NCBI RefSeq assembly: GCF_014279815.1
Contig: NZ_CP047941.1
Location: forward strand, 1,674,001 to 1,738,000
Reading direction: 5' to 3'
From: Synechococcus sp. NOUM97013
GTDB taxonomy: Bacteria > Cyanobacteriota > Cyanobacteriia > PCC-6307 > Cyanobiaceae
DNA length: 64,000 bases
Below the pieces are notes generated by a model. It was not told the DNA's origin, made no database searches, and saw only the letters and a program-made list of their open reading frames with translations. This document shows positions 6,954 to 20,053 of this stretch, piece after piece (the first letter of the stretch is position 1; every line of letters begins with the position of its first letter). A program made the translations under genes and the position numbers.

Positions 6954-7273
6954 CAGGATGCGCCTCCCTGCTTGGGCGACGTGGTGGGCTTGGCCGGTGC
7001 CGGCGCCGCTGGGGAGGAGGGTTTCGGGGGATCGGGCTCCCAGTGATCAATGATGCCGACGATGGTCAGATCACTGGGATACGACTTGCTGCCGGCCGCC
7101 TCGCGGGCCGCGGAACTACTCACACAGATGACCCAGTCACCGGGTTTGGCGCCCACGGCATCGACAGCCACCTTTTTGGCACTGCCGTCCTGCACCACCT
7201 GCAGATGCTTGTGTTCGAAATCGGGAATCCGGTTCGTGGAAACGAGCGGCTTCAGGACCTTGACGATCAGCAT
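6953..7273 (-). CDS. csoS4A: CsoS4A carboxysome vertex protein (BMC-P)
   Basis: BMC-P pentamer subunit, 106 residues. The core (LIVKVLKPLVSTNRIPDFEH, AVDAVGAKPGDWVICVSSSA, LTIVGIIDHWEPD) spans residues 1-80. A roughly 25-residue Pro/Ala/Ser/Lys-rich tail follows, longer than in CsoS4B and probably flexible. It starts 2 bases after the csoSCA stop. CsoS4A and CsoS4B both fill shell vertices. Confidence 0.93.
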   Translation of the reverse strand: MLIVKVLKPLVSTNRIPDFEHKHLQVVQDGSAKKVAVDAVGAKPGDWVICVSSSAAREAAGSKSYPSDLTIVGIIDHWEPDPPKPSSPAAPAPAKPTTSPKQGGAS

Positions 7274-7275
7274 GG

Positions 7276-9042
7276 TCAGTGAGCCTCCTGCTGGACGGGA
7301 TCGAGTGTGGAACCTACCGCCACCGCCGGTAGGGGCTGGTCGCGGTCGCGGATGGTGAGAAGGGTGTGAAGCAGACCGTCCTTCACCAGGGATGCATAGC
7401 GCTCATCGATGGCCCGCTGAATGCGTTGGCAATCAGCAATGGCCCGCTCACGCGCACCGGGAACGCGACCGGAATAATCGAAGCGCACAACAACCGGAAT
7501 AGGCAGGTCACGGGAGACATTCAGACCCTTGAAGATCTTCACGCCCACGTCCAGATCGGGGGCACCCTGCTCGACGGTGTCGAGGTGAGCGAAATAGGTG
7601 AGGTTTCGCAGATGCACTTCCTTGAAACCAATGCCCACACCAATGAAACGCTCGGCATGGCCAGCATCGGGGTAGGGCCCACGATGGAGAGAGCGCACGT
7701 AATCCTGCTGAGAAATGTTGTTGATCAGCATGCGGACGATGAACGCCACCATGCCGTCGTCTGGCGATGACGAGGCATGCGTTCTCACGGCCGCTTCCAC
7801 CGCCTCCTTGGCCTGTTGGCGAGAGAGAGGTGCGGTGCTCTCGTAAAGAGCTGAAGCACACAGCCATTGATCCAGACGGATTTCACCGTCTGCATCGGGA
7901 ACATGGACCCGGATGGCATCGGTGTCCGTATCCAGTCCGATCAGCAGCAGATCAACGGAGGCACCGCAGCAGAAGCTGTTTTCAACGGCTTCACGGAAAT
8001 CGTGAAGACGGCGCAGTCCTGAAGATGCAGCAAGAGCATCATCACTGCCATGGGCAGCGCAACCCTGGTGGGTGGGATCCAATGAGCTGAAGTGGTACGT
8101 GACCACCTTCAGGTAACGGGTCGGAGCGTGCGCTTCGTTGGGACGCTGCTCGCGATAGCGACGGTGTTCGGTCTTGACCCAGCGGTTGACAGTGTTCTCG
8201 ATGTCGAACATCGCACCGGCATGGGAGCGACGTCGAACCGCACTGAACGGAATCCGCAGGGCATAGGCGATGGTGTGCGCGAGGCGACCATCAGCGCAGG
8301 GGGTCACATCCAGGAGATGAAAGCCGCACTCCAGCAGGAACGCGTTGAATTCATCGGAGGCAGCACTGCCCGAGGCTCCTTGAAGGGGGTCCTCCTGGAA
8401 AAACCGCTCACTGAAGAGCTGGTGCGACTGAAACACGCACCAGGCGAAGAGAGCGCGCATGTCCAGGGGGCGAACCCAGGACATTTCAAGGATGTGATCC
8501 GGCAGATCAAAACCAAGTTCGGCCCGTGCCAGCCGCTGAGCCTGGGTCAGAAAATCTGGCTCATGCTGCAGGGCAGAGACCTGCTTCAGCAGAGGAACGA
8601 TGCGATCAAAACGACCTTTGACCTCAAGTTCATAGGCCTGCAGCCTCTGATTGGATTGTTGATCCGTCAGAGGGTGAAAATCTTGGGACCAGGGCAGGGT
8701 CGTGCGGCTGAGATTGACCTCTGCACGCGGTTGGGGCTTACCACGTCGGACCCAAGCGGGCTGCTGTTGCACAGAAGGACGACGTTGATCGGCCTTGGAG
8801 CGCACACGACCTGCAGACACGGACCCTTTGGAAAGCTGGGCGGCCTTCCCAGAGGTGGTCAGAGCCTGCCTACGTTGCAGCGCTGAAACCCGCGTTGTGG
8901 ACTCAACCGATGATCTGGTGGATTGGCCCGCAGACCCCGAATCAGGGTCGACGGTTGCCGTCACCATGGATTGAAGCTGACGCCTGGTTGGGGCTGTGGG
9001 GGCAAGAGCTCGCCCGCCACGGGAAGGCTTAGAGCGAACCAT
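7276..9042 (-). CDS. csoSCA: CsoSCA, carboxysomal beta-carbonic anhydrase
   Basis: Carboxysome carbonic anhydrase (CsoS3/epsilon-type, a divergent beta-CA), 588 residues. It dehydrates bicarbonate to CO2 inside the shell. The N-terminal ~110 residues are basic and low-complexity, with a motif near 55-70 (SALQRRQALTTSGKAA) strongly resembling CsoS2 N-repeats, suggesting shared RuBisCO or shell binding. The active site fits the beta-CA pattern: PCADGR with C249, D251 and R253, then H317 and C328 at 11-residue spacing as the other zinc ligands. The C-terminal half is the pseudo-duplicated domain without a metal site. It sits between csoS2 and csoS4A in normal cso order. Confidence 0.94.
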   Translation of the reverse strand: MVRSKPSRGGRALAPTAPTRRQLQSMVTATVDPDSGSAGQSTRSSVESTTRVSALQRRQALTTSGKAAQLSKGSVSAGRVRSKADQRRPSVQQQPAWVRRGKPQPRAEVNLSRTTLPWSQDFHPLTDQQSNQRLQAYELEVKGRFDRIVPLLKQVSALQHEPDFLTQAQRLARAELGFDLPDHILEMSWVRPLDMRALFAWCVFQSHQLFSERFFQEDPLQGASGSAASDEFNAFLLECGFHLLDVTPCADGRLAHTIAYALRIPFSAVRRRSHAGAMFDIENTVNRWVKTEHRRYREQRPNEAHAPTRYLKVVTYHFSSLDPTHQGCAAHGSDDALAASSGLRRLHDFREAVENSFCCGASVDLLLIGLDTDTDAIRVHVPDADGEIRLDQWLCASALYESTAPLSRQQAKEAVEAAVRTHASSSPDDGMVAFIVRMLINNISQQDYVRSLHRGPYPDAGHAERFIGVGIGFKEVHLRNLTYFAHLDTVEQGAPDLDVGVKIFKGLNVSRDLPIPVVVRFDYSGRVPGARERAIADCQRIQRAIDERYASLVKDGLLHTLLTIRDRDQPLPAVAVGSTLDPVQQEAH

Positions 9043-9049
9043 TCGCGAT

Positions 9050-11413
9050 TCAGCCCCGTGCGCCGCCGGAGACGGTGATCAGGGAACCCTTTTCGGTGTT
9101 GCCGCTCGAACCGGTCACACGGCTGACAGGCCATTCGGTCTCCTCGTTGCGCTTGCGCTCAAAAGGGGACATGGCACTCATCGGACCAGGACGGCTGGGG
9201 TTGCGACGGCGGGCGGAAGCACCCTCAGTACCGGTGACATGCTCACCACGATCCCAGTCATCACCGGTGATTTTGGTGGACGAACCCTCACCGGTTACGC
9301 GGGAGGCAGGCTTCTCAGAGGGCTCACTGACCACAGCAACGGTGGGCTGGAACTGACGCTGCTGACGGTTTTGGAACTCGCGGTTGTCGAAGCGGAACTG
9401 CTCCGTACCGGTCACCTTGCCGCCAGCCATGTCAAAAGGGCCGGTGATGCGATTCCCGTGCTCGTAGGACGTACCGGTCACACCGGAATTGGCCTCACGT
9501 TGCTGCTGAGCAGCACGGGCGGGAGATACCACACTGAAGCGAGTCCAGGCGGCACCCTCTGGAGATTGGCCGTGGGTGTCGGTGCCAGCAGGGGCCTCAG
9601 CGCCGCAAGCCGCGGCCAGCTGATCAGCACCCACGTAAGGCGTGCCAGTCACTGCTTCACAAGCGCCACGCTTGTCTCCAGTCATCACACCACCCACACC
9701 GGGTTGGATGCCGGTCATGGCAGCAGAAGGGGTGCCGACACGCACAGGCGTGCGCTCACGGATGGCCTGAACTGCAGGGGTTCCGCAGTGCTGGCCGGCC
9801 TGCTCAAGACCTGCATAGGGGGTACCGGTGACGGCCTGGCAGCTGCCGGGCTCATCGCCCGTCACGTTCCCAGAACGGCCCGTACGGGTGCCGCTCACCA
9901 CCTGATTGCGGTTGGTGACGCTGAAACCAACCTTGGCGGCCTCGGGCTCGGGCTTACTGCCGCAGAACGCATTCACCTGCTCAGCACTGATGTATTGATC
10001 ACCGGTCACGCGGTGGCAGGAGCCGAACTCATCACCGGTGACCTGAGCCGAACGGCCCACCATGGTGCCGGTCACACCAGTACCGGACAGAGTTCCGGAG
10101 AGGCCAACCTTGGCAGCAGGACGGCCTTCGGGCAGGGGATCAGAACCAAGGTATTGATCGCCGGTGAGGCTGCGGTTGGCACCGGCTTCATCACCGGTGA
10201 CGCTGGCGGAGCGACCCACCATCACACCACTCAAAGGACGCCCCTGTTCGGTGAGGCTGTGGCCCACCTTGCGAGGGGAGGTCACTCCACCACCGCAATA
10301 GGCAGCGGACTGATTGGCGGAGATGTACTCCGTGCCGGTCACGGACTTACAGGTGCCGGGCTCATCGCCGGTGACTTTTTCGGAACGGCCGACTTCATTC
10401 CCGGTGACACGGTTTCCGTGGCTGGTGGCGGTGACGCGCACCTTGGCAGGAGTGGTGGCAGCGGGAGCGGTCTGACAGAAGGTCTGGAAGACTTCAGCGC
10501 CCAGGTACTCCGTACCTGTGATGGACCGACAGGTGCTGGCTTCGTTGCCGGTGGTTTTCACCGAGCGGTTCGCCTGAGTGCCGGTCACGGTCTGGCCGGC
10601 CGTGGTGGTGCTTTCACCAACTTTCCAGTGGGCATCAGCAGCAGCGGCTTGCTTGGCGCCGTGGCGATTGGGACCGGTGGGGCGGGTCACACCAGCGCTT
10701 TGCTTGTTGCGGGCGCCGGCCTTGGTGCGCAGCTCACGCACCTGTTGAGCCAGCTCACGGCTGGTGAGATCAGGATTGGCCTGACGCGCAACAGCGGCGG
10801 CACTGGTGGGTTGCTTGCCAGCGGTTTTGCCGTGCTTCGCCATGGCCTCACGACGAGCCAGCACCAGCGCGCGGCTGGGGTTCTCGATGGCACGGCGCTT
10901 GGGGGTCGCCGAACGGCGCTCGGTGCGGCCGCTCAACTGGACCCTTGCAGCAGGGCGTACAGAGAGTTCAGCTTTCTCATCAGCACGCTTGCCACCACAA
11001 CCACAAGTCTTGGTCTCCTGGGGTGCGGACGCCGCAACGGGCTTCGGATGCTTCGCAACATCAGAGCGATTGCGGTCTTTGCTGGTATCAGCGGATTTGC
11101 CACGACGTGAGAGAGCTTCACGACGAGCCAGCACCAAGTCACGGCTGGGATCGCGCTGGGGCTTCACCTGCGAACGAATAGGGGCGGCCGAAGGAGTCAG
11201 CGTTGCCGAACGTCGCGGAGCAACAGCGACGGGAGCGGCTGGAACAGCAACTTCGGCCTGGTCGGCATTGGCATTGGTGCGGGTTGCTCTGGCATCAGAG
11301 GCGGTACGCACCCGATTGGCACCGCCACTAGCGGCGACAGAAGCTTTCTTACCGGAAGTGGTCAGCGCCTTGCGGCGCTCAAGTGCGAGTTCGCGACTGG
11401 AGAGTCTTGCCAT
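9050..11413 (-). CDS. csoS2: CsoS2, intrinsically disordered carboxysome scaffold
   Basis: A 787-residue repeat protein that bridges RuBisCO and shell. I chose the ATG at 11413 (MARLSSREL) over an upstream TTG because the longer form would run through two hairpins. N-terminal repeats of the type RELxLxRRxAxxxxGK occur near residues 6-24, 90-108 and 180-200, with a weaker one near 218-232; these bind RuBisCO in known homologues. Six middle repeats span about 264-604, each with VTG(T/D)-type motifs and mostly a Cys pair; the third lacks both cysteines. The C-terminal region (about 625-787) has further VTG motifs and ends in a short conserved tail for shell anchoring. I see no programmed frameshift signal that I could support. 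Confidence 0.95.
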   Translation of the reverse strand: MARLSSRELALERRKALTTSGKKASVAASGGANRVRTASDARATRTNANADQAEVAVPAAPVAVAPRRSATLTPSAAPIRSQVKPQRDPSRDLVLARREALSRRGKSADTSKDRNRSDVAKHPKPVAASAPQETKTCGCGGKRADEKAELSVRPAARVQLSGRTERRSATPKRRAIENPSRALVLARREAMAKHGKTAGKQPTSAAAVARQANPDLTSRELAQQVRELRTKAGARNKQSAGVTRPTGPNRHGAKQAAAADAHWKVGESTTTAGQTVTGTQANRSVKTTGNEASTCRSITGTEYLGAEVFQTFCQTAPAATTPAKVRVTATSHGNRVTGNEVGRSEKVTGDEPGTCKSVTGTEYISANQSAAYCGGGVTSPRKVGHSLTEQGRPLSGVMVGRSASVTGDEAGANRSLTGDQYLGSDPLPEGRPAAKVGLSGTLSGTGVTGTMVGRSAQVTGDEFGSCHRVTGDQYISAEQVNAFCGSKPEPEAAKVGFSVTNRNQVVSGTRTGRSGNVTGDEPGSCQAVTGTPYAGLEQAGQHCGTPAVQAIRERTPVRVGTPSAAMTGIQPGVGGVMTGDKRGACEAVTGTPYVGADQLAAACGAEAPAGTDTHGQSPEGAAWTRFSVVSPARAAQQQREANSGVTGTSYEHGNRITGPFDMAGGKVTGTEQFRFDNREFQNRQQRQFQPTVAVVSEPSEKPASRVTGEGSSTKITGDDWDRGEHVTGTEGASARRRNPSRPGPMSAMSPFERKRNEETEWPVSRVTGSSGNTEKGSLITVSGGARG

Positions 11414-11440
11414 GTCCGCCCGAGGATTTCGACGTGAGTT

Positions 11441-11460
11441 GAAGAGACACTTGTCTCTTC
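11441..11460 (-). promoter_or_regulatory. Stem-loop in the csoS2 leader
   Basis: Perfect inverted repeat GAAGAGAC / GTCTCTTC with a four-base loop (nine pairs if the loop is two bases). It begins directly after the T-run of the upstream terminator-like hairpin and ends 27 bases before the csoS2 ATG. A stem here could stabilise the 5' end of a csoS2 transcript or compete with the terminator. Function is inferred. Confidence 0.6.
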
Positions 11461-11461
11461 G

Positions 11462-11495
11462 AAAAAAACTGGAGCCCTGAACTGAATCAGGGCTC
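11462..11495 (-). terminator. Terminator-like attenuator between cbbS and csoS2
   Basis: On the minus strand a perfect 9-bp stem, GAGCCCTGA pairing with TCAGGGCTC around a six-base loop (11472-11495), is followed by CAG and seven T. This is a textbook intrinsic terminator inside the operon, 20 bases past the cbbS stop. It should end most transcripts after cbbLS and let a fraction read into csoS2 and the shell genes, matching the need for far more RuBisCO than shell protein. Confidence 0.8.
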
Positions 11496-11515
11496 GGAAC
11501 CAATTGATCCGAAGA

Positions 11516-11857
11516 TCAGCGGCCTTCGAAGACCACGAAGCAAGCACCCTGGCTCTGGGTGTAAGCGTCGTAACCGACGATGCGCACGTGGTGGTCGGGG
11601 TAAGCGCGATGGCAAGCCTCGAGCTCGCTGACCACAACGTTGAGATCCTTCTCACCGAAGAAGGGCAGCTTCCAATAAGACCAATAAGTGGCCATGGAGT
11701 TACTGGGATGGACGTGCTCGACGAGCGGGCTCCAACCCTGGGCAATGATGTACGCGATCTGGTCGTAGATCTCGTCCTGGGTCATCGGCGGGAGGAAGCC
11801 GAAGGTCTCCAGGGTGGCGACTGTTTGGTAGTCACCCACGGTGCTCTGGAAAGGCAT
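11516..11857 (-). CDS. cbbS: RuBisCO small subunit, form IA
   Basis: Ribulose bisphosphate carboxylase small subunit, 113 residues, of the form IA short type. Conserved stretches are ETFGFLPPMTQDEIYDQIAY, WSYWKLPFFGEKDLNVVVSE and a C-terminal VRIVGYDAYTQSQG segment. It lies 67 bases after cbbL and before the operon's internal hairpin. It completes the L8S8 enzyme packed in the carboxysome. Confidence 0.96.
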   Translation of the reverse strand: MPFQSTVGDYQTVATLETFGFLPPMTQDEIYDQIAYIIAQGWSPLVEHVHPSNSMATYWSYWKLPFFGEKDLNVVVSELEACHRAYPDHHVRIVGYDAYTQSQGACFVVFEGR

Positions 11858-11924
11858 GGGGGTCCTGGTTGTAAGAAAAGAGGGTGGCCGGTTGCATCAA
11901 CCGGCCGATAACACGATCAGCTGA

Positions 11925-13340
11925 TCAGTTCTGAACGTCGAGCTTGTCGACGGTGTCGAACTCGAACTTGATCTCCTTCCAGGTCTCGAGGGCGATGGCC
12001 AGCTCGGGGCTGTGCTTCGCGGCTTCCATGAGGATGTCGCGGCTCTCTTTCTCGAGATGACGGCCGGCATTGCGTGCCTTGACGCAGGCCTCGAGGGCCA
12101 CACGGTTGGCAGCAGCACCTGCAGCGGAGCCCCAGGGGTGACCGTGGGTACCACCACCGAACTGCAGAACGGAGTCGTCGCCGAAGATGGTGACCAGGGC
12201 GGGCATGTGCCACACGTGGATACCGCCGGAAGCAACGGCGAACACGCCAGGCATGGAACCCCAGTCCTGATCGAAGAAGTTGCCGCGGCTGCGGTCTTCG
12301 GGCACGAAGGATTCGCGCAGCTGGTCGATGTAGCCGAGGGTGGTCTGACGATCACCTTCCAGCTTTCCGACCACGGTGCCGGTGTGGAGCTGGTCACCAC
12401 CGGACAGACGCAGACACTTAGCGAGAACGCGGAAGTGGATGCCGTGCTTGGGATGACGGTCGATCACCGCGTGCATGGCGCGGTGGATGTGCAGGAGCAT
12501 GCCGTTCTTACGGCACCACTTCGACAGACCGGTGTTGGCTGTGAAGCCACCGGTGATGAAGTCGTGCATGATGATCGGCATTCCGAGTTCCTTGGCGAAC
12601 TCAGCGCGCTCGTACATCTCCTCGGGAGTGTTGGCGGTCACGTTCAGGTAGTGACCCTTGCGCTCGCCGGTCTCCTGCTCGGACAGCTTGATGGCTTCCG
12701 CAACGAATTCGAAGCGGTTCTGCCAACGCTGGAAGGGCTGGGAGTTGATGTTCTCGTCGTCCTTGGTGAAGTCCAGACCGCCACGCAGGCACTCATAGAC
12801 AACACGGCCGTAGTTCTTACCGCTCAGGCCGAGCTTCGGCTTGATGGTGCAACCCAGCAGAGGACGGCCGTACTTGTTCATCCGGTCGCGCTCGACCTGG
12901 ATGCCGTTCGGCGGGCCGTAGCAGCTCTTGATGAAGGCCATCGGGAAGCGGATGTCTTCCAGACGGAGGTGGCGCAGCGCCTTGAAACCGAACACGTTGC
13001 CGACCAGGGAGGTCAGAACGTTGGTGATGGAACCCTCTTCGAACAGATCGAGGGGATAGGCGATGAACGCATAGAAGGACTCCTTGTCACCAGGGACGTC
13101 TTCGATGCGGTAGCAGCGGCCCTTGTAGAAGTCGAGGTCGGTGAGGAGCTCGGACCACACGGTGGACCAGGTGCCGGTGGAGGATTCAGCAGCCACAGCA
13201 GCGGCGACTTCTTCCTTGGGCACACCTTCCTGGCCGGTGCATTTGAAGCAGGCCAGCAGGTCGGTATCGAGGGGGACGTAATCAGGAGTCCAGTAAGTGT
13301 CCCTGTACTCCTTGACCCCGGCGTCGTACTTCTTGCTCAT
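11925..13340 (-). CDS. cbbL: RuBisCO large subunit, form IA
   Basis: Ribulose bisphosphate carboxylase/oxygenase large subunit, 471 residues, full length. The active-site regions are intact: [37 protein letters not shown] (with the carbamylated Lys and the Mg-binding Asp and Glu), and loop 6 [11 protein letters not shown]. The N-terminal [15 protein letters not shown] matches proteobacterial-like form IA enzymes, consistent with an alpha-cyanobacterium. It is preceded by csoS1 and followed by cbbS. ATG start at 13340. Confidence 0.97.
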
Positions 13341-13409
13341 GAGAAAACTCCGTTAAGTCGGTGAAGGGGGGTGAGACGTTGCAACCTCAGATCAGAGGTT
13401 CAGCCGATC

Positions 13410-13721
13410 TCAGTCCTTCTGACCCAGGAAGTTGCCGTTGCCCAGTGCAGGCTCCACTTCGCGGTGGGGGCGGGCAATGATGTGAGCAGCAACGAGGCCG
13501 TCGCCCACGCGCTCACAGGCATCGGCGCCAGCACGCACAGCTGCGTTCACAGCACCGGTTTCGCCGCGAACCAGAACGGTGACGTAGCCGCCGCCGACGA
13601 ACTCACGACCGATCAGGCGCACTTCGGCAGCCTTGGTCATGGCGTCAGCTGCTTCGATCGCGGGGACGAGGCCGCGAGTCTCGATCATGCCGAGAGCGAT
13701 GCCCATGGTTTCGTTAGCCAT
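13410..13721 (-). CDS. csoS1: CsoS1, major BMC-H carboxysome shell protein
   Basis: Single-BMC-domain shell protein of 103 residues (MANETMGIALGMIETRGLVP, then GGGYVTVLVRGETGAVNAAV and GDGLVAAHIIARPHREVEP). It forms hexamers that tile the carboxysome facets. It is the first gene of the minus-strand cso operon, in the usual marine picocyanobacterial place before cbbL. The BMC domain of the csoS1E-like gene is a close copy at both protein and DNA level. Confidence 0.95.
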   Translation of the reverse strand: MANETMGIALGMIETRGLVPAIEAADAMTKAAEVRLIGREFVGGGYVTVLVRGETGAVNAAVRAGADACERVGDGLVAAHIIARPHREVEPALGNGNFLGQKD

Positions 13722-14012
13722 TGCCTACCGGGAAAAGGGGTGGAATGTTCGCCGCAGAGACTGCTCTGCCGATGGGGACGGCGTCAAGAGCTAGCGAGTA
13801 AATCCCGGATCACTGTCCGTAGTGAACCTGATAAGCCAAACTGATCACCCTGTCGTGGACTGATCCAGAGAACTGTGCCAAGGGATGTGAGCAGGCCACC
13901 ACAAACGGTTGACGATCGCGACAAGGGCGACAGGTTTACATTCCGCAATCGTTCCTGACGGTTCTTGACGGCCCCCATCCCACACAATGGTGCTCCTCTG
14001 CAGAACCGTGCC
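13722..14012. other. Upstream region of the carboxysome operon
   Basis: About 290 bases between the csoS1 start (minus) and the likely HAM1 start (plus). It must contain the main carboxysome promoter and probably one for HAM1. A minus-strand TTGACG lies near 13786-13791, but no good -10 follows at the right spacing, so I cannot place the start site. Confidence 0.4.
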
Positions 14013-14591
14013 TTGCGCACCCTGATCATCGCCAGCGGCAATCCGCACAAGGTTGCTGAAATCGAATCGATGCTCGGGCCGATTGCCATTGAGGTTCAAC
14101 GGCAGCCAGCAGATCTCGAGGTGGAGGAGACGGGATCCACCTATCTGGAGAACGCACGGCTGAAGGCCTGCGCCGCTGCCGAACGAACAAGCTGCTGGGC
14201 TCTCGCCGACGATTCAGGCCTCGAGGTGGATGCCCTCGATGGGGCTCCCGGGCTGTTCACCGCCCGCTTCGCAGCCTCGGACCCCGAGAAGTTGATGCGC
14301 CTGACGGAGGCCATGCAGGGAGTCCCCTACCGAAGCGCCTGTTTTCGCAGTGCCATGGTCCTTTGTTCACCAGATGGTGAGTGCGAGGAGGAAGCAGAGG
14401 GGTTCTGCTGGGGGGAGCTGCTCCAGGAGCCTGCTTACACCGGAGGCGGCATTGAATCGTTGTTCTGGGTGCGGGAAGCCGGTTGCAGCTATGGACAACT
14501 GAACGCAGCACAACTGAGCAAGCTGGGCAGTCGAGGCAAGGCAGCACGGGCACTTGCACCGGGGCTGCGACGTCGCCTCCATCTGAATTGA
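14013..14591 (+). CDS. RdgB/HAM1 family non-canonical purine NTP pyrophosphatase
   Basis: Hydrolyses dITP/XTP-type nucleotides to monophosphates, keeping deaminated purines out of DNA. The family signature is LIIASGNPHKVAEIE at the N-terminus, SGLEVDALDGAPGLFTARFA in the centre and a C-terminal LSKLGSRGKAARAL. Length from the TTG at 14013 is 192 residues, normal for the family. An upstream in-frame TTG at 13965 would add 16 residues without family similarity, and neither has a clear ribosome binding site. It sits between csoS1 and csoS1D in opposite orientation, a placement common in marine picocyanobacteria. Confidence 0.88.
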   Translation: MRTLIIASGNPHKVAEIESMLGPIAIEVQRQPADLEVEETGSTYLENARLKACAAAERTSCWALADDSGLEVDALDGAPGLFTARFAASDPEKLMRLTEAMQGVPYRSACFRSAMVLCSPDGECEEEAEGFCWGELLQEPAYTGGGIESLFWVREAGCSYGQLNAAQLSKLGSRGKAARALAPGLRRRLHLN

Positions 14592-14617
14592 AGCTTGATT
14601 GGAACTGAATTCTCAGC

Positions 14618-15403
14618 TCAACGCTGGGAGGAACGTCGATTCACCATATCGATGGCCCGCATGGCCGCTGCAGCCGCCTCCTCCACATCACCTTCCCGGC
14701 CAGCCAGGGTGAGGCGACCAAAAGCACCCACCGCTTTCACATCCACCAGGGTGATGTTCGAGGCCTTTTCGGCTTCGTTCGCGGCAATCAGCACGTAGCC
14801 GGCTGGCTCAGTTTCCAAAATGAACATGCTCATTCCGGCTTCGATCATCGAACCGCGGCGGTTCTGACGATTGATCAACACAGCATGGTCAGGCGTGATG
14901 GCTCGGATGACTTCTGTCCAGCTGACATCGGCAGGAGTGCGTTGATCAACAGAGCTGCCGATGGCTTCAAGAACCACATCACCGGAATGGATCACGGTGC
15001 TTTGATCGCGGTGATACAAGGCCATCGAGCCGAAGGCTCGTTCCACCACCATCTGTCCGAGGCGGACATTGCTGGCTTTCAGGGCAATGTCAGTGACCCG
15101 GTGAACTGCCATACCGGGAGACACTTCCATCCAGAGGCATGCATCTCCAGGGATGGGAAGAAAGCCCTGACTCACTGTTCCCATGTAGGCCGCCAATTGA
15201 GGCTGCAGGGAATCGATAAAGACATAGGTGCGCAGTTCAATCGACTGCACATGACTGTTTTGCCGCAAGAGACGCGGTGATTCCGAATCCGTCGTCACCA
15301 CGCAGCTGGCTCCACCAGCGGAGGGATGGACCTCCGTTCCGGTGACGAGAGCGCTTCCGCCGACCCGCCGCTCCCTGGCATCGAAGCCGGCGAAACGATT
15401 CAT
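14618..15403 (-). CDS. csoS1D: CsoS1D, tandem-BMC shell protein
   Basis: A 261-residue protein with two fused BMC domains. Known CsoS1D forms trimers that stack face to face with gated central pores and are thought to pass RuBP and 3-PGA. The first ~50 residues are variable. Domain 1 begins at [20 protein letters not shown], domain 2 around [20 protein letters not shown] and [20 protein letters not shown]. The conserved pore-type [14 protein letters not shown] segment is present. It lies just outside the operon proper, convergent with HAM1. Confidence 0.93.
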
Positions 15404-15499
15404 GGCGCGGATCTTACTGGAAGCTCTTCAAGAATCAGGGAATGGGCGCTTGCGCAGCTGGACACAGCCGATACCTTCAGCCCAGCTGCTTTTTGAGCC

Positions 15500-15907
15500 A
15501 TGGCTTCGACACGCCGAACCGCTGAAGAGGCAGGTCAACTCTCGACAGAGATCAACGCCGAGCAGGCCCTGGGCCTCGTGAGTTACAGCCTCATGCAGCG
15601 ACTCGCCAGCGAGGGGCAGGGGGAACTTCCCTGGATCGAAGCGCAGGAAAGCGGTGCCAGCAGCATGGTGCGGCAACTGCGCCACAGACTGGAGCTGACG
15701 TCTTTAGCCATCGAAACCGGTGCCCCGCTCACCACATCGGAGGTGTCCTATTTGCTGGGGGCACGCCCGGCCAGCGAAGTCGTTGAACGCGGAGGCCTCC
15801 AGGCCCGTCGGGTAAGCCGCAACGTCTGGCGTTTGACCCGCATCGAGGAATCCGAAAGTCGCACTAACGGACACTTCGGTGATGATCGCTTCCGTCGCAG
15901 ACTCTGA
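15500..15907 (+). CDS. Conserved hypothetical protein, weak HTH-like segment
   Basis: A 135-residue soluble protein I do not recognise as a named family. Residues near 1-20 are polar, the middle is helical, and the segment LTTSEVSYLLGARPASEVVERGGLQARRV followed by WRLTR resembles a helix-turn-helix or MerR-type winged element, though weakly. It is divergent from csoS1D with 96 bases between and is followed by a clear terminator. Its closeness to the carboxysome island suggests, without proof, a regulatory role. Confidence 0.75.
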   Translation: MASTRRTAEEAGQLSTEINAEQALGLVSYSLMQRLASEGQGELPWIEAQESGASSMVRQLRHRLELTSLAIETGAPLTTSEVSYLLGARPASEVVERGGLQARRVSRNVWRLTRIEESESRTNGHFGDDRFRRRL

Positions 15908-15953
15908 GCAGGATCAGGTTTTAGTTAGATCGCTGGCATGGTCAGCAAAATGA

Positions 15954-17426
<1,473 letters not shown>

Positions 17427-17430
17427 ATCC

Positions 17431-19011
17431 ATGCAACTCACGCTCTGGACCTATGAAGGCCCGCCACATGTGGGCGCCATGCGCATCGCCGCATCGATGC
17501 GCGGCGTGCACTACGTGCTGCATGCACCACAGGGGGACACCTATGCCGACCTGTTGTTCACGATGATCGAACGACGGGGGGAGCGCCCACCAGTCACCTA
17601 CACCACGTTTCAGGCGAGGGATCTTGGAGGCGACACTGCTGAACTGGTGAAGCGAACGGTACGGGAAGCGGCCGAGCGCTTTCAACCCGAGGCACTGCTC
17701 GTTGGAGAGAGTTGCACCGCTGAACTGATTCAGGACCAACCCGGTGCTCTGGCCCAGGGGATGAACCTGACGATGCCGGTGGTGCCATTGGAACTGCCTG
17801 CTTACAGCAAAAAAGAAAATTGGGGAGCATCCGAAACGCTGTATCAGCTGATCCGCAACCTGCTGAAGCCACAGGTACCGGATCAACCTCAGCACGACAC
17901 ACAGGCCTGGAAAGCTGAGGGGCGCCGGCCGCGGGTGAATTTGCTCGGACCCTCGCTGCTTGGATTCCGCTGTCGCGATGACGTGCTCGAAGTACAGCGG
18001 TTATTGACCGTTCATGGCGTGGATGTGGGCGTGGTGGCTCCCCTTGGCGCCAGCGTGAATGACATCCAACGCTTGCCTCAGGCGGATCTCAACGTCTGCC
18101 TCTATCCAGAGATTGCCGAGTCCAGCTGCAGCTGGATGGAGCGGAATTTCGGCATCCCCTTCACACGCACGGTCCCAATCGGCGTCGGCGCCACGCACTC
18201 CTTTTTGGTGGAGGTGCACACCCTGCTTGGCCTAGAGCCACCGGCAGCCGATGAGGGCTATCAACGCTCACGATTGCCCTGGTACTCCGAATCAGTGGAT
18301 TCGACTTATCTAACCGGGAAGCGCGTATTCATTTTCGGCGATGGCACCCATGCCATCGCCGCGGCACGCATCTGCCAGGAGGAGCTGGGTTTCGAGGTGG
18401 TCGGCCTTGGCACTTACAGCCGTGAAATGGCAAGGGCGGTGCGTGCTGCCGCAAAGCAACTGGGCCTGGAAGCCCTGATCACGGATGACTATCTGGAGGT
18501 GGAGGCCGCTATGGCGGAGACAGCACCTGAGCTGGTTTTGGGCACACAGATGGAGCGTCACAGCGCCAAACGTCTAGGACTTCCTTGCGCAGTGATCAGC
18601 ACGCCAATGCACGTGCAAGACGTGCCTGCACGCACCAGTCCTCAGATGGGATGGGAAGGGGCCAACGTCATCTTTGATGCCTGGGTGCACCCCTTGATGA
18701 TGGGCTTGGAAGAGCACCTGATCGGCATGTTCCGCCACGACTTCGAGTTCGTGGATGGACATCAGAGCCATCTCGGCCACAGCGGGGGGTCGGGCGCCGA
18801 CACGGAAAGTCCCACGACATCAAATACAGATCAAGCCAAGACGGCCACAGGTCTGGCTTGGACTGCAGATGGCGAAGCCGAGCTGCGCAAGATTCCATTT
18901 TTCGTACGCGGAAAAGTGCGACGCAATACGGAAACCTACGCACGCGAAAAAGGCCACCTGGAGATCAGCAGCGAAACGCTCTATGACGCCAAAGCACACT
19001 TCAAGGCATGA
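17431..19011 (+). CDS. chlB: ChlB, dark-operative protochlorophyllide reductase subunit B
   Basis: NifK-like subunit that with ChlN forms the catalytic NB component. The ATG at 17431 gives [20 protein letters not shown], the invariant family start, and places D36 (PQGD) at the position of the Asp that is the unusual fourth ligand of the NB cluster. Length is 526 residues. A polar linker near 452-475 precedes the C-terminal small domain ([20 protein letters not shown]), which closes over the substrate. Confidence 0.96.
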
Positions 19012-19162
19012 GTATTTGCACTTAATTCTTTTACTTTAATCATTAAAAATTAGCGAATATCCTGATGTCAGCGGGAGCAGATCTTTGATTTCTCGTTGTA
19101 AATGAGCCACAGACCATGAACTGCTGTTGAATGAAATCAAACCCATTGGAGAAGGGTGCTGA
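19012..19162 (+). promoter_or_regulatory. AT-rich leader of chlL with strong ribosome binding site
   Basis: A 151-base gap between chlB and chlL, with a strikingly AT-rich stretch at about 19018-19062 in an otherwise GC-rich window. Such a stretch is typical of a promoter, so chlL probably has its own start site besides read-through from chlNB. A GGAGAAGG ribosome binding sequence lies about 8 bases before the ATG. Confidence 0.5.

Positions 19163-20053
<891 letters not shown>

Follow-up and report, generated by a model that had tools for sequence, protein, structure and literature searches.

The window, a stretch of 64,000 nucleotides from Synechococcus sp. NOUM97013, carries a cso operon on its minus strand that reads csoS1 (13721-13410), cbbL for the RuBisCO large subunit (11925..13340), cbbS for the RuBisCO small subunit of 113 aa (11516..11857), csoS2 for the carboxysome scaffold (9050..11413) and csoS3 (9042-7276). 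The cbbS gene gave 435 relatives by tblastn, and csoS2, whose product starts with MARLSSREL (ATG at 11413-11411), yields a PF12288 CsoS2_M match in its own genome; the open reading frames csoS1, cbbL and csoS3 are named after the initial annotation and their families. The gap between cbbS and csoS2 is 102 nt long. Stem-loop 1 (11472..11495, minus strand) starts 20 nt past the cbbS stop and is formed by a perfect 9-bp stem, GAGCCCTGA (11495-11487) pairing with TCAGGGCTC (11480-11472), around a 6-nt loop. It is followed by an 11-nt linker, CAGTTTTTTTC (11461..11471), which on the minus strand consists of CAG (11471-11469), seven T (11468-11462) and C (11461), and by stem-loop 2 (11441..11460, minus strand), a perfect 8-bp stem of GAAGAGAC (11460-11453) and GTCTCTTC (11448-11441) with the loop AAGT. 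A csoS2 leader of 27 nt (11414..11440, minus strand) completes the gap. The letters and coordinates that the initial annotation had given for both stems are exact; its description of a 9-bp stem with seven T after it is right as to the perfect stem and the number of T, but the T-run lies 3 nt away from stem 1, the CAG spacer intervening. Another hairpin, GGCCGGTTG ATG CAACCGGCC (11886..11906, minus strand), is found in the cbbL-cbbS gap. The operon has an orderly appearance, with hairpins in both RuBisCO gaps and with csoS2 and csoS3 tightly packed; as these two genes are just 7 nt apart in 61/77 loci, the hairpins are located in the RuBisCO half of the operon.

In the window's own genome both stems are part of the minimum-energy fold, with probabilities of 0.97 and 1.0 for stems 1 and 2 in a 342-nt context. 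The cbbS-csoS2 gap folds at -37 kcal/mol as compared to -26.2 +/- 3.65 kcal/mol in dinucleotide shuffles (z -2.96), and none of 200 such shuffles was as good. A strong hairpin is nothing rare between same-strand genes of this genome, 18/131 of the sampled gaps having one, and terminator-like patterns showed no excess by count, 12 being present in 13 kb vs 9.7 +/- 2.9 in shuffles; as the region holds about as many as the shuffles do, we rejected the pattern count as proof. Unlike a REP-like repeat, which has many genome copies, the exact pattern of stem 1 occurs at a single place in the 2.55-Mb genome, and so does that of stem 2. A search of 11000-14200 against Rfam returned nothing at the hairpin site and no match above gathering score, the sole hit with E no higher than 5 (18 bits vs a gathering score of 57) lying at 11211-11270 on the plus strand.

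A first set of relatives, the best 80 of the 435 loci in named genomes together with 26 of the 31 genomes in the window's genus, its own among them, yielded 106 cbbS-csoS2 gaps, 95 of them unique. The shuffle test covered unique gaps of 30-300 nt without N, and the best stem of the cbbS-csoS2 gap was matched in no more than 5% of 60 dinucleotide shuffles in 91/92 unique gaps. The same threshold was reached by the cbbL-cbbS gap in 72/89 unique gaps, the window's own being among the weaker ones by folding energy (z -1.3). The cbbL-cbbS hairpin hardly varies among 18 marine Synechococcus gaps of short length, in which RNAalifold predicts 9 pairs with no double change, and on the same gap of 17 Prochlorococcus-type rows RNAalifold gave no consensus. 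A third hairpin, in the csoS1-cbbL gap, is not claimed, since just 7/62 unique gaps reached the 5% threshold; RNAalifold found no structure in 55 csoS1-cbbL gaps.

In an even sample of 386 genomes drawn from the phylum PF12288 was present in 58, all belonging to the window's family and distributed over 14 genera, and a hairpin stands 3' of cbbS in 58/58 of these alpha-cyanobacterial genomes. In 55 of the 56 scored gaps (loops up to 12 nt) the stem was seen in at most 5 of 100 shuffles, which preserve base content only, and its probability in context exceeded 0.8 in 54/56, the exceptions being L173 (0.0) and L184 (0.19). L173 and the unscored L161 and L179 have stems of at least 8 pairs with wider loops, which fall outside the shuffle test, and in genus g10 and in L194 the scored stem is not always the first past the cbbS stop. 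By a mechanical rule stem 2 was found in 25/56 genomes, in 20 with a probability above 0.5, the linker between the stems measuring 8-16 nt overall and 9-12 nt in 22/25 gaps having stem 2; the rule did not find it in the 14 scored gaps of genus g2, nor in g4 or g7. A second stem is present behind stem 1 in many marine lineages. Genus g2 (L148, L152, L153, L155, L160, L161, L162, L166, L167, L169, L170, L178, L179, L188, L191 and L195) carries a different hairpin, on CUUUCUCC/GGAGAAAG, its gaps being A+T-rich and its genomes 1.6-1.7 Mb in size, and is probably high-light Prochlorococcus.

Three alignments of unique gaps were used for covariation. A1 holds 53 of 57 marine Synechococcus/Prochlorococcus gaps (L066, L070, L072 and L077, which resemble L060, were omitted); A2 holds 35 of 38 freshwater-type gaps (L036, L043 and L044 were omitted for their long gaps, and L056 was entered from a point further along, at which its stem is found); and A3 holds 51 of the 95 rows, hand-picked across clades, several rows that had a long leader or an ambiguous stem being omitted. 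Clades were labelled by record titles and, for some rows including L039, L038, L019 and L068, by the appearance of the sequence. The initial annotation had placed paired hairpins between the genes of abundant RuBisCO and those of the scarcer scaffold and had named covariation in other alpha-cyanobacteria as a check; both stems are RNA structures preserved by compensatory change, stem 1 with changes on both sides at 9/9 pairs in A3 and stem 2 with double changes in 7/8 pairs in A1. In A3, 96.3% of the stem 1 cells are paired as compared to 78.8% after dealing out and 22-53% when slid, a percentage that is biased towards structure because the rows were hand-picked and those with unclear stems omitted, and double changes occupy 104 cells vs 36.9 expected. 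In A1, where the outermost pair of stem 1 is misaligned, 99.5% of the cells of its 8 pairs are paired and 4/8 show double changes, 85.7% of the stem 2 cells are paired, and further pair types, one of five measures, were not above shuffles (121/500 reach it). In A2, 6/7 predicted pairs show double changes. As the three alignments overlap and their rows are related, these tests are not independent. Stem letters vary by clade: marine Synechococcus has GAGCCCUGA/UCAGGGCUC, many freshwater rows have variants of GGUCCCGG/CCGGGACC, and Prochlorococcus has AUAGCCUCGA/UCGAGGCUAU or UUAGCCCUGAAA/UUUCGGGGCUAA.

A hairpin formed by one RNA strand tolerates G-U and not A-C, and a DNA palindrome would also keep its arms alike. 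Over all pairs, read on the operon strand, G-U vs A-C counts for stem 1 were 22 v 4 in A3, 16 v 3 in A2 and 7 v 1 in A1 (p 0.07), and for stem 2 in A1 38 v 9. G-U outnumbers A-C in all four counts, with p-values that are loose due to the related rows and overlapping alignments, which points to selection on the operon RNA. These comparisons show stem 1 to be a structure of the operon-strand RNA that selection has maintained, at a similar place after cbbS. Since the letters have changed while pairing was kept, the hairpin probably marks the end of the abundant RuBisCO message and the start of the scarcer scaffold message.

The T-run is far less uniform than the stem. Five or more T within 5 nt of the stem were found in 30/58 genomes, mainly in three of the 14 genera (g1 7/10, g2 13/16, g9 8/10, g8 1/2, g11 1/1 and 0/19 in all others), in a tally that uses a stem starting within 40 nt if present, the one so used in L194 being weaker than its stem at 55. 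Runs of at least four T begin 2-5 nt from the stem in g1 and g9 and at 0 or 1 nt in g2; the window's genus and those like it have the set-back run. Under a more permissive criterion of 5 T in 8 bases, the first set gave 32/36 for marine Synechococcus, 11/38 for freshwater rows and 8/21 for Prochlorococcus. For comparison, in 464 kb of the window's own genome 46/174 gene ends with a gap have a strong hairpin and 10 of the 46 carry four or more T; with the window's site set aside, nine such T-run hairpins remain, eight in which the run begins at 0 or 1 nt and one with T inside the stem. Three Prochlorococcus genomes that are not known to belong to g2, sampled over 400 kb, gave a strong hairpin at 13/200 gene ends and a T-run at 1/13 of these. 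The gene ends of both controls, like the same-strand gaps sampled above, come from our own rough gene finder (76% coverage). A provisional terminator score was -6.5 at the window's site, below threshold, and ranged from 11 to 55 in eight own-genome controls, which were picked for their T-runs, the one of nine with T inside the stem being omitted. The score was above zero in 1/10 of g1, 0/10 of g9, 14/16 of g2 and 4/22 of the other genera, three of these four being g7.

Outside cyanobacteria we reached another class, probably proteobacterial, by way of a genome titled Betaproteobacteria. CsoS2 was present in 72/369 of its genomes, and the best 30 loci included 28 with a gap, from which L196 (the centre's own locus) and the misread L198 were dropped to leave 26. 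A significant hairpin starting 7-45 nt past cbbS was found in 13/26 gaps, and none in the remaining 13/26. None of the 13 significant hairpins has four or more T behind it, and yet 3/13 score above zero, indicating that a strong stem alone can lift the provisional score. As an alignment of 16 of these gaps gave no consensus structure, single-sequence tests alone count here and homology of the hairpins is not claimed. Inverted repeats were also seen by eye in the cbbS-csoS2 gap of Thiodictyon and Nitrobacter plasmid records. The genome L043 / G413, titled Betaproteobacteria, has a cso locus of cyanobacterial type, for which assembly contamination, perhaps a binning error, seems likelier than transfer.

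Between stem 2 and the csoS2 ATG there is no Shine-Dalgarno-like AGGAGG; instead GGGCGGAC (11414-11421, minus strand), with which the leader ends, adjoins the start codon. GGGCGGA[CT] precedes the csoS2 start in 32/58 genomes. Nine copies of GGGCGGAC were counted on both strands of the 464-kb sample, and the csoS2 copy alone abuts ATG, GTG or TTG. GACGGGCGG is probably the complement of a conserved 16S rRNA segment around position 1400.

We propose, with nearly an even chance of being right, that stem 1, a conserved RNA hairpin between cistrons, makes up the 3' end of the RuBisCO portion of the cso message. A rival reading, that stem 1 and a U-run act everywhere as a leaky intrinsic terminator stopping some polymerases while the rest continue into csoS2, we regard as somewhat unlikely. 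The G+C-rich stem with a T-run in g1, g9 and g2 is terminator-like, and in g2, where the run stands directly at the stem and the provisional score is mostly above zero, U-run termination at the site is plausible. Beyond g1, g2, g9, g8 and g11, however, the long T-run is absent, and the other class has none behind its significant hairpins; a gap separates run and stem in g1 and g9, which sets these sites apart from eight of the nine own-genome controls, and 19/20 of the scores in these two genera are below zero. In the window itself the U-tract does not follow the stem directly, and the operon, rather than ending, continues at once. The earlier remark that the first stem looks like a terminator fits g2 but is weakly backed in the window's own genome and in the many relatives that have the hairpin and no T-run. 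Since strong gene-end hairpins in Prochlorococcus seldom carry a T-run, missing T-runs say little there and their absence is a weak counter-argument. In Prochlorococcus MED4 genes further along an operon are more stable and have lower levels, and 5/9 CO2-fixation genes belong to the cluster of mid-to-end genes (PMC2897979). A step-down in that strain would thus not come from faster downstream decay, and the MED4 fit favours termination or polarity over decay, in line with a leaky terminator in MED4. As the stem is constant and the U-run variable, U-run termination is nevertheless unlikely as the shared function.

It is also conceivable, albeit quite improbable, that the hairpin merely protects the RuBisCO message or caps strongly expressed cistrons, the level of csoS2 resulting from its own translation start. 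The hairpin of the cbbL-cbbS gap fits this, as do the conserved letters ahead of the csoS2 start, which could be a translation signal; what such protection leaves unexplained is the second stem and the near-constant linker of many marine lineages. That the stems are DNA palindromes, serving as a regulator binding site or as the site of an internal csoS2 promoter, we consider highly improbable. They are perfect inverted repeats and sequence data alone are at hand, but the excess of G-U over A-C on the operon strand, the variation of the letters between clades and the occurrence of each exact stem at one place in the genome argue against it, and a scan of 7000-20000 for promoters of the sigma-70 type found none of that type. 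Competition between the two stems, as in an attenuator, is hardly credible: tandem stems ahead of a gene would suit it, and the earlier suggestion that stem 2 could fold against the terminator was along this line, but the arms of the two stems have no bases in common, and both form together in the same fold of the own genome, so that stems 1 and 2 are not mutually exclusive with each other.

Stem 1 as the 3' end of the RuBisCO part could work as follows. The polycistronic RNA would be cleaved within the U-rich linker, or the polymerase would sometimes stop there; stem 1 would protect the csoS1-cbbLS piece from 3' exonucleases, stem 2 would cover the 5' end of the piece carrying csoS2, and output would be lower for the tightly packed genes from csoS2 and csoS3 onwards. 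With a stem for the 3' end, a U-rich single-stranded linker and a stem for the 5' end, the arrangement resembles the pattern of a processed intercistronic site, and the linker may be a site for RNase E; the cyanobacterial enzyme shares its substrate preference with the E. coli one, which cleaves single-stranded RNA rich in A/U (PMC10989914). Where the U-run directly follows the stem, as in g2, leaky intrinsic termination would be the likelier means at the same site. Possibly, then, stem 1 lowers expression ahead of csoS2, in most lineages through processing and protection and in some through leaky termination. A step is indeed required, as CbbL and CsoS2 stand at 8:1 in carboxysomes of H. neapolitanus; in carboxysomes produced by E. 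coli the ratio is 8:1.3 (PMC9040747). These values are compatible with cis-encoded control and also with control by translation, and differences in translation alone could set the ratio. The hairpin between cbbL and cbbS, whose products are needed in equal amounts, counts against equating hairpin with ratio step: a hairpin need not be one. A broader proposition, which we hold to be unlikely, is that the conserved site is a carboxysome stoichiometry valve whose chemistry has turned over across lineages. In proteobacteria and the majority of alpha-cyanobacteria it would act through processing of the RNA and protection of its ends, in marine Synechococcus as a displaced-U hairpin, and as a true leaky terminator in those Prochlorococcus that are the most streamlined, where stem 2 was not found.

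Elements of this kind are known elsewhere. In the puf operon of Rhodobacter a hairpin lies between the abundant and the scarce part of one photosynthetic operon, and the cso hairpin is like it in placement; puf has decay data, whereas the cso hairpin is known from sequence. For cso transcripts of Halothiobacillus neapolitanus, whose operon is proteobacterial, unlike the cyanobacterial one of the window, Cai reportedly suggested in 2008 that secondary structures within the operon could give rise to unequal levels. The stoichiometry of the C. cellulolyticum cellulosome is set by stem-loops of this kind, 28/33 of them having no U-run, and the puf operon is named as SRPS in the same paper (PMC4423207). 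The cso site is like the cellulosome SRPS described there in that, within an operon encoding a complex, abundant cistrons carry stem-loops at their 3' ends, most of them without a U-run, and in that orthologous stem-loops are kept between species, as our covariation alignments indicate for the cso stem. The position after cbbS was found in every sampled alpha-cyanobacterial genome, and the abundance of the cistron is taken from PMC9040747. The likeness has its limits, as cleavage sites and RNA levels were mapped in the cellulosome system (PMC4423207), which is another machine from another phylum. A full-text literature search, with subscription papers mostly outside its scope, found no description of a cbbS-csoS2 hairpin in alpha-cyanobacteria. 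Taken on sequence comparison, the cbbS-csoS2 hairpin is a real and widely conserved RNA element of a known kind, for which we infer the function.

Alpha-cyanobacteria perform much of the ocean's carbon fixation. With a cis element in all 14 sampled genera that have CsoS2, the unequal output of RuBisCO, scaffold and shell becomes testable by a small deletion, and when cso operons are transferred into other hosts, constructs that alter the cbbS-csoS2 gap could alter the ratio. The longest cbbS-csoS2 gap of the 95 unique ones, that of L036 (4343-4996), measures 654 nt and by eye contains many short repeats of the AACTGATTCAG kind.
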